Positions 1 to 5,140 of a stretch of DNA of 52,391 bases are shown in pieces. The position numbers were made by a program, and so were the translations under genes. The notes under the pieces are model-generated. The model did no database searches. It saw only the letters and a list, made by a program, of their open reading frames with translations, and was not told where the DNA came from. Source of the DNA: a virus; IMG/VR virus record IMGVR_UViG_3300032236_001850, positions 1 through 52,391 of that record, one strand, 5' to 3'. Within the stretch, counting starts at the first letter, position 1. Every line of letters begins with the position of its first letter.

Positions 1-228
1 ATGAACCATTAGAACCTGAGGAACCATTAGAAGATACTGAACCATTGGAGCCATTAGAACCATTAGTACCTGAGGAATCTGATGAACCATTAGAACCTGA
101 GGAACCATTAGAAGATACTGAACTATTAGAACCTGAGGAACCATTAGAACCTGAGGAACCATTAGAAACTGAGGAACCATTAGAAGATACTGATCCATTA
201 GAACCTGAGGAACCATTAGAACCTGAGG
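1..228. repeat. 18-nt degenerate tandem repeat encoding Ser/Gly/Asn units
   Basis: The plus strand repeats units like ggaaccattagaacctga. On the minus strand, inside the exported-protein gene, these read as GSSGSN-type residues. About a dozen degenerate copies are visible and the array continues to the window edge. Such arrays can expand and contract by slippage. Confidence 0.8.
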
Positions 229-721
229 AACCGGAACTTGTAGAATTTGAGGAGGTATTTTGTTTATTTTCCTTTCTGTTATCTGTTGTCGTTGAGCTTT
301 GTACACTTCCTATTGAAGATAACATGTTTGTTGAACCTGAACTTTCGGATGCTGCTTTTTCTGCTATGCTTGAAGTAATGTCACTTATTGCAGATAATGA
401 ATTTATAACACTTATTAAAGAAATAGCACTATCCTGAGCTATACCAACTGCTGTTGGAAGACCTATAATGGATGAGCACGGATTATTGTTTCCAAATGAC
501 TGATAAACACCATTAGCCCATGAACTAAAAGCACCATTTGTAAAATCGCCGGGTTGAAATGTTTGTATTTGACCGTAATAAGTTACTGTTATACCGTTTG
601 CTGGTACCTGTATTGTTTTAGATGTCCCTGTACAAGGGTCATTATAGGAATAATCAAGCGTCTGCGAATAACAGGCGCTTGATATAAGAAGCAGTATAAT
701 AAGTAAAGCTCTAACATGCAT
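1..721 (-). CDS. Exported Ser/Gly/Asn-repeat protein, C-terminus off the window
   Basis: A minus-strand frame is open from an ATG at 721-719 to the window edge, so at least 240 residues with the 3' end missing. It begins MHVRALLIILLLISSACYSQ, a hydrophobic signal sequence; the SSAC could be a lipobox, or cleavage could follow YSQ as in flavobacterial signal peptides. After about 120 ordinary residues it turns into a low-complexity tail of GSSGSN, GSVSSN and similar units. Its ATG overlaps the TAA of the CsgG-like gene upstream (TAATG), so the two are probably translationally coupled. The function is not recognised. A secreted or surface-anchored partner of the CsgG-like protein is a guess from adjacency only. 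Confidence 0.75.
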   Translation of the reverse strand, partial: MHVRALLIILLLISSACYSQTLDYSYNDPCTGTSKTIQVPANGITVTYYGQIQTFQPGDFTNGAFSSWANGVYQSFGNNNPCSSIIGLPTAVGIAQDSAISLISVINSLSAISDITSSIAEKAASESSGSTNMLSSIGSVQSSTTTDNRKENKQNTSSNSTSSGSSGSNGSSGSNGSVSSNGSSVSNGSSGSNGSSGSNSSVSSNGSSGSNGSSDSSGTNGSNGSNGSVSSNGSSGSNGS

Positions 722-1437
722 TACGATTTAAAGATTCCTTTTTTAATCATTCTAGCAACTATTCTGGAAGAAGCAGTTTCTAGTGATTTTTTTGTTGTTA
801 TACCTATTGTTGATTGGTTAAATTTAACCTCACTGTCGTCAACTCCATCCAGTATTGAAGCTGTTTTTATTGTTTTAGCCTCACCCAAACCAGATCCAAC
901 TAAAACCTCGTTGGTTTCTGCATCAACAAACTTAACCTGTAGACCAAGTCTTGTTACTTGTGTTGTTTTAGATTCGCCATTCACCTTTAATACTTCATCC
1001 TCCGAAACTGAGAAATCATAAACCTCTATATAAACAAAGTATTTAGCAAGTTTAATCTTTCCCTTACCGTCCAATTTGTTTTCAGTAAAACCTTTTGCTG
1101 AAGCTTTGAATTGGGAAATCATTCTTTCCTTAATTTCAAGTTTATCCTCAGTGAAAACAAATCTATTTGTCATCTCAAGAAATTCCAAAACTATATTGGT
1201 AACACCCAGACCAACTCTTTTATCCTTAAGCTCTGGATACATTTCATAAAGTTCCTCGTTTATACCAACTTTCAAAAGTTGAATTGGAACCTTTATCGTG
1301 TCATTATAGTCGGAAACTAAATCTATCGACTGTGTTTTTTCGAATGAAGCTTGATAGGTTTCTGTCTTAACAGAGCCTATTTGTGCCTTACTTGTTAAAG
1401 CAAATAAGACACAAATTATAATAAGCGCTCTTCTCAT
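721..1437 (-). CDS. CsgG-like outer-membrane secretion protein
   Basis: 238 residues with an N-terminal signal peptide (residues 1-19, ending LTSKAQ). The C-terminal half has the pattern of the CsgG/curli assembly family: an aromatic strand (YFVYIEVYDFSVSEDE, near 135-150), then LGLQVKFVDAETNEVLVGSG near 165-185, and a closing Ala-rich helix around KKSLETASSRIVARMIKKG. CsgG proteins form oligomeric outer-membrane pores. The lipobox cysteine usual in CsgG is absent; the signal looks like an ordinary type I one. The gene lies in the lysis/surface operon and overlaps the start of the Ser-rich exported protein. A role in making an envelope pore or exporting its neighbour is inference. Family assignment is moderate. 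Confidence 0.6.
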   Translation of the reverse strand: MRRALIIICVLFALTSKAQIGSVKTETYQASFEKTQSIDLVSDYNDTIKVPIQLLKVGINEELYEMYPELKDKRVGLGVTNIVLEFLEMTNRFVFTEDKLEIKERMISQFKASAKGFTENKLDGKGKIKLAKYFVYIEVYDFSVSEDEVLKVNGESKTTQVTRLGLQVKFVDAETNEVLVGSGLGEAKTIKTASILDGVDDSEVKFNQSTIGITTKKSLETASSRIVARMIKKGIFKS

Positions 1438-1441
1438 TTTA

Positions 1442-1789
1442 TTATTTTTGACCAGTTACATCAGATAGAGAAACTCCATCCTCTTCGTCAACTTTTTGGA
1501 TAAGCATTTTATCTCTGTCTTCAGAGTTAAACCAGTAATCAACAACTTTGTTTAAATTACCAACAAATGCACCTAGAAGGATAAGTAGCATTTCTTTCCA
1601 ATCCTCACCGATCGGCACACCGAAAAATACACCTGAGTTAATACCAAGTATAATTAATGTGAATAAACCCAATACGATTGCAGTTATTCTCCAACGATTG
1701 TTTTGCATCTCTTGAAGCATGTAGTAAAATCTGTTGTTAGCTTCAACAGGCTCTGGCTTTTTAGCCCCTAATAATTCTTTGATTTTCAT
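1442..1789 (-). CDS. Two-TM membrane protein, holin-like
   Basis: 115 residues from the ATG at 1789-1787 (MKIKELLGAKK). A longer upstream reading would overlap the lipoprotein gene and is less likely. The ATG follows an A/C-rich leader (AAACAAAACAAAAC) like those before the T9SS gene and endolysin. There are two hydrophobic segments, about residues 34-58 and 66-85; the second ends in GNLNKVVDYWFNSED, resembling the glycine-rich end of many phage holins before the charged tail. The charged C-terminus ends DVTGQK. Position in the same operon as the endolysin supports a holin role, but no family signature is decisive. Confidence 0.55.
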   Translation of the reverse strand: MKIKELLGAKKPEPVEANNRFYYMLQEMQNNRWRITAIVLGLFTLIILGINSGVFFGVPIGEDWKEMLLILLGAFVGNLNKVVDYWFNSEDRDKMLIQKVDEEDGVSLSDVTGQK

Positions 1790-1811: not shown

Positions 1812-2015
1812 TTATCTATGACCGTGGCTATGACCATAATTATGACCATAACCACCATAATAGTGTATTTGGTAATATGGCTTTGGATAATAATATCTAG
1901 GTCCATAATTTGTGTAAATAGGTCTAGGTTCTACATAATATGATGACGGTGTTAATTGAATACCGCACGAGCTCATACCTAGAGCAACAAGTAATACTAT
2001 TATCAATTTTCTCAT
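1812..2015 (-). CDS. Small Tyr/His-rich lipoprotein
   Basis: 67 residues from the ATG at 2015-2013; a TTG three codons upstream is an alternative start. It begins MRKLIIVLLVALGMSSC, a clear lipoprotein signal with a cysteine at residue 17. The mature part is dominated by Tyr, Pro, Gly and His, ending in a GHNYGHSHGHR tail that could bind metal. It sits between the holin-like gene and a small membrane protein in the lysis operon. A small phage lipoprotein there could be an outer-membrane spanin, but the aromatic composition is unusual for spanins. Function unknown. Confidence 0.65.
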   Translation of the reverse strand: MRKLIIVLLVALGMSSCGIQLTPSSYYVEPRPIYTNYGPRYYYPKPYYQIHYYGGYGHNYGHSHGHR

Positions 2016-2017
2016 AA

Positions 2018-2350
2018 TTACCAAGGTGCGTCTTCTGACTCACTTTTCTTTTTCTCCTCCTTTGAAGCTGCTGGTTTCTCAACAGTTTTTTCTTTGATGA
2101 TGGTTGTTGTTCCACCAGCTTGTTGTTTTTGTTGATTAGTGTTATTGTTTGTTAAATTAACCACAACAGGAGCAGCTGGAGCAGCTTGTTCAGTTTTTGG
2201 TTTTTCCTCGTCATCTTTATGACCACCAAATAGTTGTGTTGATAACCAGATACCCCCACCACCGATAACGGTGGTAAGAGTTCCAATTATAGTTTTCTTT
2301 AATCCAGACCAGGTTCCATCTGATTCTGGTACATTTGATTCTTCTGACAT
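2018..2350 (-). CDS. Small membrane-anchored protein with charged tail
   Basis: 110 residues. After a short acidic N-terminus there is one hydrophobic Gly-rich segment at about residues 18-42 (TIIGTLTTVIGGGGIWLSTQ). The rest is soluble, with an Ala/Pro stretch, an Asn/Gln-rich stretch and a Lys/Glu-rich end (EEKKKSESEDAPW). There is no signal peptidase site. The stop lies just before the lipoprotein start. An N-in, C-out inner-membrane protein next to a lipoprotein would fit an i-spanin/o-spanin pair topologically, but this is inference from layout. Confidence 0.6.
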   Translation of the reverse strand: MSEESNVPESDGTWSGLKKTIIGTLTTVIGGGGIWLSTQLFGGHKDDEEKPKTEQAAPAAPVVVNLTNNNTNQQKQQAGGTTTIIKEKTVEKPAASKEEKKKSESEDAPW

Positions 2351-2358
2351 CTTAATTG

Positions 2359-4293
2359 TTATTTTTTTATAATTTTCTCAGCTTCGTTTTGACTTTTAGC
2401 TTGTAAATAAGCTACATATACTCCACTAGCGAAGCTTTGTAGGTCATAGCTATATGTATAGGTACCCGCTGGCATTTCTTTGTCTAAAATAACGCTTTTA
2501 ATAGCTCCGTTCATGTCAACCACACAAAGCTTAACTTTACTAGACTCTTTAACCTCAAATTCTATATTAACAAGATTTGTTGTAGGATTTGGGTAAACTT
2601 TCATTGTTTCTTTGGTTTCTACACCAGTAATAGATGAAGTTTTATAAACCATCAATATTCCATTAGTTGGAGTTATTGACATGTCTTTTGCATTCTGATC
2701 TCCTGAGAATTTTCTTGTAGTGTAAAGTGGTGAAGCACTCCAAGTATCCTGTGGTGTTTTAGCTATAAATCTAAGGGTAAAAACATTATAATTATCAGGA
2801 AGCGAGTAGCTCTTATCAGCTGATGGATCATAACCACCCCATTCTATCTCTCCGTTAGTTGGATTTAGAAAAGAAAGCCAGAACATTGATTTTTCTGAAT
2901 TTTTTATGTCTTTAAATTCCAATAGGTTTTGATCATAAATCATACCAAATTGTAATGCAGTAATAGATTCACCTGCAGTTTTAAGTGTAACCGGGATCTC
3001 AACTAAATTACCTTCATTAACTGAAATACTAGGTACATTAAGTTCCATAGTTGAAGTTGGAAAATCGTAACTTACTTGTGTGTCTATAACATTTTGAGTA
3101 GCTGCTGGCATACCTGGAGCAGGTACAGCAGAAACTGTGATTGGTGTCATACGAGCCATGTGGTAACCTGTACCATTTGCATCACCAGTAACCATTACAT
3201 AATAAACAGAAGGAGCTTGGGCTGCGTCAGTTATAGGAATGTAAAAATCTGTTTGTCCTGGTATTGTTGATGTGTAGTTAGTTGTAGGTGAACCTGTTAT
3301 GGTTGCATACTCTGCTGCAGTAAAGAATTTGATATCAGCTACAGCATTAGGCCAAGTTGTGAATCTACCAGCAATTCTACCAAATACACCGTAAGCATCG
3401 GTAATTGTTACGTTATTAGAACCATTTACATCAGCTGCGTAAAATTGAAATCCTGATGGTGTTCCATTTCCAAGAACCCATTGGTTAATAAGTTCAGCAT
3501 CAGTTGTTGTTATAACGTTACCTGGAGTCATTGTGCTTCCTTTAACTGCTATACGTACATCATAATAAGTTAAATCTATAGGCTCAGTGAATTGGAAGTG
3601 TCCATTTGCATCTGTAGTGTATGAATTATGTATAGTCCAGTTTGATGTTGTTTTAACTTTCTTTTCAAGATTAAATGGTAAGTTCTTAGCTGGTGTTCCA
3701 GTTACGTTAGTAAAATCACCACTATAAGTAAGATTTTGGTTAAGCCAAGCACCACCATATGAATGTAAAGTCATAGCAACGTCTAAACCTGGTTGGTTCG
3801 ATGCAAGATACGGGAAAGAAGGTTGAGAAGCAAGCGGTACCCATGTTAAGTTTCCTATCGAAGTTAAAGAATAGAAAGTAGCAGCAGGTGCGTGCTGGAA
3901 AGTAAGTTCAAATAATTCACCCTGTGGTAAACTGTAATTTGTATCAGTACCAGTATAAACTAGTGTGATTGTAACGTAACCTTGTGACGGTTGATCGATA
4001 AATTGTAATGCTAAATTAGTTGTTGATCCAACTATTGCAGGAGAACATCCTACGAAAGCAGTTTTATCATAGAATAATCTAAACTGTAAACCAGTAACTT
4101 TTTCTGCATTTGTTGATGTGTTACTAAATGTTAATCTAGCTTTAGAAACACCAGCAGTAGATGTACCAATGGTGTAATTCTGTGCAAGTATCGTGTAGAT
4201 ACCATTCCCAGGTGCTGCCGGTACAGTTTGTGAAAATCCTAAAAAGGAAGCACAAAGAAAAGCAGCGATTAAAAAAATCTTCAATTTGTTCAT
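2359..4293 (-). CDS. T9SS-targeted protein with cohesin- and dockerin-like modules
   Basis: 644 residues. Order: signal peptide (1-22, ending FLGFSQ); a cohesin-like beta domain around 45-150 (KVTGLQFRLFYDKTAF); a linker; a dockerin-like segment around 265-315 (AADVNGSNNVTITDAYGVF, a Ca-binding D-x-N-x-S type loop); a second cohesin-like domain around 415-545 (SITALQFGMIYDQNLLEFKD); and a C-terminal type IX secretion sorting domain from about 560 (VYPNPTTNLVNIEFEV, then GVYVAYLQAK and a basic end). The sorting domain is a Bacteroidota-specific signal for outer-membrane translocation and often surface anchoring. A phage gene carrying it should be exported by the host machinery. It lies directly after the endolysin in the lysis operon, behind an A-rich leader. 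Confidence 0.85.
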   Translation of the reverse strand: MNKLKIFLIAAFLCASFLGFSQTVPAAPGNGIYTILAQNYTIGTSTAGVSKARLTFSNTSTNAEKVTGLQFRLFYDKTAFVGCSPAIVGSTTNLALQFIDQPSQGYVTITLVYTGTDTNYSLPQGELFELTFQHAPAATFYSLTSIGNLTWVPLASQPSFPYLASNQPGLDVAMTLHSYGGAWLNQNLTYSGDFTNVTGTPAKNLPFNLEKKVKTTSNWTIHNSYTTDANGHFQFTEPIDLTYYDVRIAVKGSTMTPGNVITTTDAELINQWVLGNGTPSGFQFYAADVNGSNNVTITDAYGVFGRIAGRFTTWPNAVADIKFFTAAEYATITGSPTTNYTSTIPGQTDFYIPITDAAQAPSVYYVMVTGDANGTGYHMARMTPITVSAVPAPGMPAATQNVIDTQVSYDFPTSTMELNVPSISVNEGNLVEIPVTLKTAGESITALQFGMIYDQNLLEFKDIKNSEKSMFWLSFLNPTNGEIEWGGYDPSADKSYSLPDNYNVFTLRFIAKTPQDTWSASPLYTTRKFSGDQNAKDMSITPTNGILMVYKTSSITGVETKETMKVYPNPTTNLVNIEFEVKESSKVKLCVVDMNGAIKSVILDKEMPAGTYTYSYDLQSFASGVYVAYLQAKSQNEAEKIIKK

Positions 4294-4318: not shown

Positions 4319-5140
4319 TTATTTTAGAAGAGTATAGTACTCCTTAAAATGCTTAATTCTATCTGGTAGACCGATAGTACCACCATTTACTTTTTTAGTT
4401 ACTGCAGTAACTGTTGCATCATCTGCTCCTTTGTCACATATAGGCCAAAGACCATTTGAATTAAAGAAGAAAGCTGCAGAAGCTAAAGGATATTTAGTTG
4501 CAACTAAATCTGGGTTAGCCACGATATCCTCGGTTACCAATTTATCAAAAGAAGCATAATTCGATTTACCCGTTAATTGAATATAACCTCTTCCTCTAAA
4601 TTTAAAGCCTTCACCTGAAGCTTCATCGCCATTACCCATTCTATTAGAATAAACTTTGTTTGCAATTTTTTCCTTGTTTCTGTCGTATGGTTTTGCAGAT
4701 TCAAGGGTTGGGAAATACTTTTTGAATGTTGTATTCAATCCCGCTGCTCCATAGTTTAAATTCTCATAAACTGCTTTGAAACCTCCACTCTCGTGTCCAC
4801 ATTGTGATAGGAAGTGTGCCAATCTTAATGGTGTTGTGATATTGAAGGTTTTTGCAGTGTCAGGAATCTGTGCGATCACCTCTGCAGGTACGTGCCCTTT
4901 TAGAGCATCAAGTTTAAATGGACTAGCTGGTATGGTAGCAGCGGATGTTGTATTATCAGCACTGAACATTTTGTTCCATGTACCATCACCAACTATACCA
5001 TCAGCGGTTAATCCATTAGCAGCTTGCCATGCTTTTACGGCCTTTTCCGTACCCGGACCGAAAGCACCATCTGCTGCTAAACCTAGTTTACTTTGGAGTT
5101 TTTTTACATCATCTCCACTTGATCCAACTTTTAAAATCAT
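4319..5140 (-). CDS. Endolysin: peptidoglycan-binding domain plus GH19-type glycosidase
   Basis: 273 residues. Residues 1-60 form a PG_binding_1 domain (KVGSSGDDVKKLQSKLGL, later GDGTWNKMF). The C-terminal part is a GH19 chitinase/lysozyme-type domain: AHFLSQCGHESGGF carries the expected catalytic Glu, and GRGYIQLTGKSNYASF is the typical substrate-cleft motif. GH19 phage lysins hydrolyse the glycan strands of peptidoglycan. There is no signal peptide, so export would need a holin or other pore. It is first in the minus-strand operon and is preceded by a class B motif and an A-rich leader. Confidence 0.9.
   Translation of the reverse strand: MILKVGSSGDDVKKLQSKLGLAADGAFGPGTEKAVKAWQAANGLTADGIVGDGTWNKMFSADNTTSAATIPASPFKLDALKGHVPAEVIAQIPDTAKTFNITTPLRLAHFLSQCGHESGGFKAVYENLNYGAAGLNTTFKKYFPTLESAKPYDRNKEKIANKVYSNRMGNGDEASGEGFKFRGRGYIQLTGKSNYASFDKLVTEDIVANPDLVATKYPLASAAFFFNSNGLWPICDKGADDATVTAVTKKVNGGTIGLPDRIKHFKEYYTLLK

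Follow-up and report, generated by a model that had tools for sequence, protein, structure and literature searches.

Does a phage gene whose product ends in a sorting domain of the type IX secretion system (T9SS) send that product through the T9SS of its host, and what would the product carry there? This question is raised by an open reading frame (ORF) on the minus strand, at 2359..4293, of virus record IMGVR_UViG_3300032236_001850. The record has 434,509 bases, and its first 52,391 bases are the stretch of DNA analysed here (the window). The ORF starts with ATG and encodes a protein of 644 amino acids (aa), which we call the scaffold. We favor the reading that this is a late, exported scaffold carrying phage lectins on the surface of the infected cell, and we give this statement as a whole a probability of roughly 0.6. 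The gene and its parts are as follows.

2359..4293, minus strand: scaffold protein, 644 aa, consisting of signal peptide, cohesin, transthyretin (TTR)-like domain, dockerin-like module, cohesin and T9SS type A sorting domain
4231..4293, minus strand: signal peptide, residues 1-21, followed by Q22 (helix 2-14 in the structural model; Bacteroidetes Q-rule)
3730..4206, minus strand: first cohesin, residues 30-188 (by fold only)
3541..3729, minus strand: transthyretin-like beta domain, residues 189-251 (PF00576 20.6 bits, below the cut-off of 25.3; strands in the model)
3364..3540, minus strand: dockerin-like module, residues 252-310 (PF00404 below cut-off; profile match; one invariant calcium loop)
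2650..3081, minus strand: second cohesin, residues 405-548 (PF00963 above cut-off; fold)
2362..2607, minus strand: T9SS type A C-terminal sorting domain, residues 563-644 (PF18962, TIGR04183, fold)

The scaffold carries a T9SS sorting domain and an export signal

A preliminary description of the window had named a C-terminal T9SS sorting domain, and had counted the lack of a hidden Markov model (HMM) match to this domain as evidence against the proposed export through the host T9SS. We found that two HMMs match the C-terminus above their cut-offs. PF18962 covers residues 566-642 with 45.3 bits (cut-off 27, E 1.1e-11), and TIGR04183 covers residues 566-644 with 37.6 bits (cut-off 23, E 1.6e-9). 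We then compared an AlphaFold model of the scaffold, made with 60 aligned sequences and having a mean predicted local distance difference test (pLDDT) score of 85.7, with known structures. Residues 558-644 of the model resemble the C-terminus of PorU from P. gingivalis (6za2_B; Z 9.8, 2.7 Å over 81 residues).

The sorting domain is kept in the relatives of the scaffold. Among representatives with less than 90% identity to each other, TIGR04183 was found in 59/60 (the window's copy included) and in 32/32, and PF18962 was found in 60/60. The tail is the least conserved of the folded parts, with a mean identity of 37% versus 65% for the dockerin-like part. Its ratio of nonsynonymous to synonymous changes (dN/dS) is 0.151 versus 0.096 for the rest of the scaffold (29 pairs), which indicates purifying selection. 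The occurrence of both matches in nearly all representatives together with this ratio argues that the sorting-domain match is more than chance. Each of the 26 records of 100-434 kb contains exactly one TIGR04183 match, and it is always the scaffold.

We found that Q22 directly follows the signal peptide in 57/57 scaffold rows that reach this column. Glutamine at this position is the Bacteroidetes Q-rule, as given in the available excerpt of PMC5837995. Using a simple heuristic scan of our own, a signal peptide was detected in 56/59 scaffold proteins, and a signal peptide followed by Q in 54/59. The same combination was found in most exported proteins encoded nearby, which are introduced below (p238 56/58, barrel protein 53/57, p150 45/50, p151 37/41, nuclease 15/15), and in 11 of the 930 other ORFs of the same loci.

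The scaffold gene is found in phages that probably infect Bacteroidota

The record encodes a terminase (264 kb) and a capsid protein of the T4 Gp23 type (299 kb), and cultured phages carry the same module; bacterial contamination or a prophage was thus rejected. In 50,697 phage records the scaffold was found only in the four records of Flavobacterium phage immuto (31.7-31.9% identity, 94% of the query). Immuto is an isolated phage that infects Flavobacterium, and its scaffold is encoded by two genes. In the product of gene 14 the signal peptide is followed by the first cohesin region and by the dockerin-like part. In that of gene 15 the second cohesin and the sorting domain (TIGR04183 44.8 bits) come with a further signal peptide. 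Tblastn searches of the 50,697 records with the tail returned the four immuto records or nothing, which gives no count of phage T9SS tails because BLAST is weak for the sorting domain. In UniProt, A0A6J5M064 of an uncultured Caudovirales phage (636 aa, 49% identity, the same fold over 633 columns) is a member of the scaffold family under the automatic name 'Secretion system C-terminal sorting domain'.

Further loci came from scans of IMG/VR with the scaffold (11 loci), a scaffold alignment (74 loci), p238 (80 loci, the best 80 of 467) and a divergent p238 alignment (80 loci, the best 80 of at least 502). Loci of different scans overlap in contigs, and locus counts are therefore not contig counts. 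Both p238 scans were made independently of the scaffold sequence. We found that 151 of their 160 loci, which were not de-duplicated by contig, contain the scaffold through to its tail, and 8 stop at a contig edge within about 400 bases upstream of p238. The 226 scaffold genes with a tail come down to 156 sequences when identical DNA is counted once, and to 91 groups when clustered at 90% identity.

A search of 84,980 genomes of bacteria and archaea located p238 on only three contigs, each in a metagenome-assembled genome (MAG). Both Bacteroidota MAGs that hold contigs of phages with the scaffold module encode SprA, the T9SS channel. SprA was not found in the Sphingomonadaceae MAG, nor in the two phage records searched alongside, the window's record and immuto.

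The preliminary description had proposed that a late phage protein passes through the host T9SS. The export part of this proposal is strongly supported by the sorting domain, the Q-rule, the single tail per genome, the relative infecting Flavobacterium and the SprA genes of the MAGs. Judging from these sequence data, the scaffold is very probably exported through the T9SS of the host. Late expression is suggested by the neighborhood, in which the scaffold gene sits among lysis genes. The endolysin gene, which the preliminary description had placed in the same operon, lies on the same strand and ends 25 bases ahead of the scaffold gene.

The scaffold has cohesin folds and shares a module with a lectin protein

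The signal peptide and two cohesin-like domains of the preliminary description were borne out. PF00963 matches residues 416-544 with 45.2 bits (cut-off 24.1), and a match to this family is present in 53/60 members of the scaffold family. In the model both regions have a cohesin fold: residues 30-188 resemble 6kgc_A (Z 14.3, 2.7 Å over 139 residues) and residues 405-553 resemble 4dh2_A (Z 13.6). We rejected an assignment of two Pfam cohesins, as one passes Pfam and the first rests on its fold.

Between the cohesins lies the dockerin-like module. A profile of 11 sequences matched the cellulosomal dockerin 4uyp_B to the middle of the scaffold with E 4e-4, and PF00404 (dockerin type I) was found at E 0.01 or better in 17/60 members of the family. 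The second calcium loop of the module is canonical and invariant in the rows covering it (D288 57/57, N290 57/57, D299 58/58).

At 192 of 241 loci p238 is followed downstream by a lectin gene, whose product ends in the TTR/dockerin-like module of the scaffold. The N-terminal part of the lectin protein varies; in 79 representatives we found Lectin_C in 42, LamG in 14, GEVED in 10 and PA14 in 7. The lectin protein of the window's phage has a legume lectin and a LamG domain. The preliminary description had suggested self-assembly, based on cohesin and dockerin in one chain. The cohesin folds and the dockerin-like module are indeed present, but the data favor the lectin protein of the operon, with the same terminal module, as a putative partner over simple self-assembly. 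We place the chance that the scaffold carries the lectins of the operon slightly below even, and that of any single purpose lower; the preliminary description had listed a changed surface, the release of aggregated progeny and a marking of the outer membrane before lysis as candidates.

In the proposed mechanism the phage would be a lytic phage of a Bacteroidota bacterium with a T9SS. The Sec system and signal peptidase I of the host would bring the scaffold into the periplasm, and the host T9SS would recognise the type A C-terminal domain and move the scaffold across the outer membrane. There the two cohesins, together with the dockerin-like module common to the lectin protein, could hold lectins in a complex at the surface of the infected cell, ahead of its opening by the adjacent endolysin. 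Cohesin and dockerin would bind each other in this complex, and the benefit may be adhesion or receptor masking. We think it unlikely that the arrangement extends to a complete cellulosome-like surface organelle, in which the scaffold has the only sorting domain of the genome, dockerin-tagged lectins without such a domain dock on the scaffold cohesins in the periplasm and are co-exported via the host T9SS, and, with the CsgG-fold protein and the barrel reshaping the outer membrane, an exchangeable glycan-binding coat covers cell and debris just before lysis.

Several results weigh against the reading of the scaffold as an exported carrier of lectins. The preliminary description had proposed searches with TIGR04183, PF00963 and PF00404. 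The first two, and in addition PF18962, scored above their curated cut-offs, but PF00404 reached only 20.0 bits in the scaffold, under its cut-off of 22.9. Of the calcium loops of the dockerin-like module the second is the invariant one; the first loop is degenerate, leaving one loop where a dockerin has two. PF00404 was found in only 2/79 lectin proteins. The lectin proteins also have no T9SS tail that would take them to the surface.

Some loci depart from the usual scaffold gene. At one of the 160 loci of the p238 scans (L184) the frames of the scaffold are interrupted. Three related contigs (L054:7061-7180, L057:7302-7421 and L058:1686-1805) have an in-frame TGA with an ATG immediately behind it at the position where the immuto gene is split, and the tail half behind the TGA has no signal peptide. 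In L057 the split scaffold gene is the only one of 25 genes that ends in TGA. Synonymous differences between the contigs speak against one copied error; the stop may be read through, or export by the tail may be lost. At L160 (4921-10077), on a contig in a Flavobacterium MAG, the module has a cohesin protein without a tail and an adjacent gene for a small lipoprotein, perhaps another way of anchoring. These four loci, L054, L057, L058 and L160, may be anchoring variants or errors.

If the reading is true, lytic phages do more than break Bacteroidota cells from inside: shortly before lysis they turn the secretion machine of this phylum to the display of an adhesive complex. Infection would then have a bearing on aggregation, on the blocking of receptors and on what becomes of lysed matter, and the T9SS would be a factor in phage fitness. 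The single cargo per genome and the variable lectins would form a natural set for asking whether the T9SS co-exports folded partners. The reading is testable, as cultures exist of the immuto phages and of the Flavobacterium that they infect.

The scaffold gene is part of a recurrent module

The genes around the scaffold gene are listed here, with the last line in positions of the whole record.

4319..5140, minus strand: endolysin, 273 aa (PF01471, PG_binding_1; PF00182, GH19; phrog_181 endolysin, E 1.4e-67)
2018..2350, minus strand: p110, small, with a hydrophobic stretch rich in glycine (next gene in 54/59 neighborhoods)
1812..2015, minus strand: 67-aa ORF with a lipoprotein-like start (sequence; no Pfam match)
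1442..1789, minus strand: small membrane protein of 115 aa (family in 34/59 neighborhoods)
721..1437, minus strand: p238, exported, with a CsgG fold (model; no Pfam CsgG match)
1..721, minus strand: first part of an exported Ser/Gly/Asn-repeat protein, with a putative outer-membrane barrel beyond the record end
429731-434509, minus strand: rest of the module at the other end of the record

After the scaffold the order of genes is p110, the 67-aa ORF, the small membrane protein, p238 and the exported low-complexity protein, which crosses the record end. The other record end holds, on the same strand, the rest of the low-complexity protein, a lectin protein of 920 aa, p150 and p151, and the module therefore seems complete. 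Both ends (window 1-721 and 433376-434509, same strand) lie within the same Ser/Gly/Asn repeat of one gene. It is therefore probable that the record represents a full genome, circularly permuted and cut in the repeat. In addition, two Gp23-like capsid matches above the cut-off were observed in the record, at 87367-88128 and 299066-300448, and the other capsid-like gene, at 87 kb, is the shorter.

Among 59 neighborhoods the most recurrent genes were p238 (58), the low-complexity barrel protein (57), p110 (54), p150 (50) and p151 (41). An endolysin was found in 35, two families of small membrane proteins in 34 and 27, and a secreted non-specific nuclease in 15. PHROGs gave no family for the scaffold, p110, p238 or a longer form of p115, the 115-aa membrane protein.

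The model of p238 has modest confidence (pLDDT 70.7). In a Foldseek search the first 18 chains were all CsgG; the CsgG rows had Z 11.1-12.5 and the next row 9.8. The eight best rows are CsgG, among them 6lqh_A (Z 12.5, 3.6 Å over 159 residues). According to its model p238 thus has the CsgG fold, and a ring-shaped pore is putative. None of 13 records had a match to Pfam CsgG (PF03783), while four control genomes matched, and we rejected p238 as a sequence member of the CsgG family. Searches of PDB sequences with p238 or the barrel protein gave nothing useful, and p150 gave ribosomal S1 only (E 0.0025). We also rejected p150 as a relative of p238; hhalign paired the two at 97.3%, a match that weighs little because the alignment takes in the signal peptides.

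The last 200 or so residues of the low-complexity protein show an alternating pattern in the alignment, and we read them as a putative outer-membrane barrel. HExxH is present in all 41 listed members of the p151 family, which are small exported proteins, versus 15/342 other ORFs of similar size. A downstream EE..CY..E pattern is conserved in the family (L242:13732-14184, minus strand), and the copy tested had no Pfam match. Because of the HExxH motif in 41/41 members, p151 is a candidate for a new family of secreted zinc peptidases of phages.

Other explanations for the module

The module might also be an outer-membrane lysis apparatus in place of spanins. In such an apparatus the CsgG-fold protein and the barrel would open or weaken the membrane, disruption of the surface layer would fall to the HExxH protein and the T9SS cargo, and the lectins would be accessory. 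The frequent endolysin (35/59) and small membrane protein families (34 and 27) fit this idea, as does HExxH in all p151 proteins. It also gains from the CsgG fold of p238, because a role in lysis was proposed for phage CsgG/CsgF (PMC9004378, available excerpt). However, Pfam finds no catalytic domain in the scaffold, and opening the membrane from inside needs no T9SS export to the outer face. We know of no role for cohesins or lectin domains in membrane rupture, and we regard this explanation as unlikely. Alternatively, scaffold and lectins could mask or occupy receptors and thereby keep other phages, or released progeny, off the infected cell or its debris (superinfection exclusion). The surface address of the scaffold agrees with this, and variable lectin parts on a constant module would be expected for changing glycan targets. 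However, exclusion genes usually act early while the scaffold gene sits among lysis genes, which makes exclusion quite unlikely.

Phage tails commonly carry Ig-like and lectin domains, and weak structural matches of the scaffold to tail proteins were found at the bottom of the viral list. The scaffold might then be a virion protein, a tail fibre or decoration, with Ig-like domains that merely resemble exported ones. The Q-rule signal peptide in 57/57 rows and the T9SS tail in nearly all relatives argue against this, as do the more than 100 kb that separate the scaffold gene from the capsid and terminase genes; we consider a virion protein highly improbable. Apart from phages, T9SS cargo is typical of Bacteroidota (PMC5445135, available excerpt), which would suit a host gene acquired by chance and without function for the phage. 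This explanation is close to refuted by the retention of the gene with its neighbors across 59 phage neighborhoods, by purifying selection and by the presence of p238 on just three MAG contigs in the genome collection.

Relation to known systems

Phage T9SS cargo is already known, as the available excerpts of two papers describe. Cryophage has three variable T9SS cargo genes (endoglucanase, GH39 and PA14; PMC7468147), and crAss-like gut phages encode BACON/T9SS proteins near their head genes (PMC6949934). These phages resemble the one studied here in having genes with a T9SS type A sorting domain and a presumed use of the host system. Going by their descriptions, they differ in that here the single cargo of each genome (26/26 records) is a scaffold of cohesin and dockerin type, encoded in a fixed module together with a CsgG-fold protein.

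The curli-type CsgG/CsgF of pelagimyophages and of methylophage Melnitz (PMC7029224 and PMC9004378, excerpts) are likewise a phage-borne CsgG-fold protein with other exported proteins. As their possible benefit, lysis control (PMC9004378) and, for the curli genes of pelagimyophages, 'sibling capture' (PMC7029224) have been proposed. In contrast, those hosts belong to other phyla, and here p238 has no Pfam CsgG match and has a T9SS cargo beside it. The clostridial cellulosome, with its cohesin scaffoldins and dockerin enzymes, shares with this module the cohesin folds (Z 13-14) and the dockerin-like modules on separate proteins of one operon. The phage module differs from it in having lectins in place of cellulases, T9SS in place of Gram-positive anchoring, a dockerin below the cut-off and a putative binding. 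Proteins of P. gingivalis phages that follow the Q-rule (PMC10367356) are similarly adapted to Bacteroidetes export by Sec and signal peptidase I, but they are five genes of unassigned function, and the excerpt available of that paper does not mention T9SS or type IX. Literature searches on T9SS, cohesin/dockerin or CsgG in phages, with most subscription papers outside their reach, listed no description of a module of scaffold, lectin and CsgG.

Sequences upstream of the scaffold gene

At 20 of 32 loci the T4-type late motif TATAAATA, with at most one mismatch, lies upstream of the scaffold gene; shuffled sequences gave 15.2, and the difference is not convincing. A sigma-70 scan was not above shuffles. 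By eye, a string resembling ATATTTAT recurs before the scaffold gene in L127, L128, L136, L081, L139, L147 and others.
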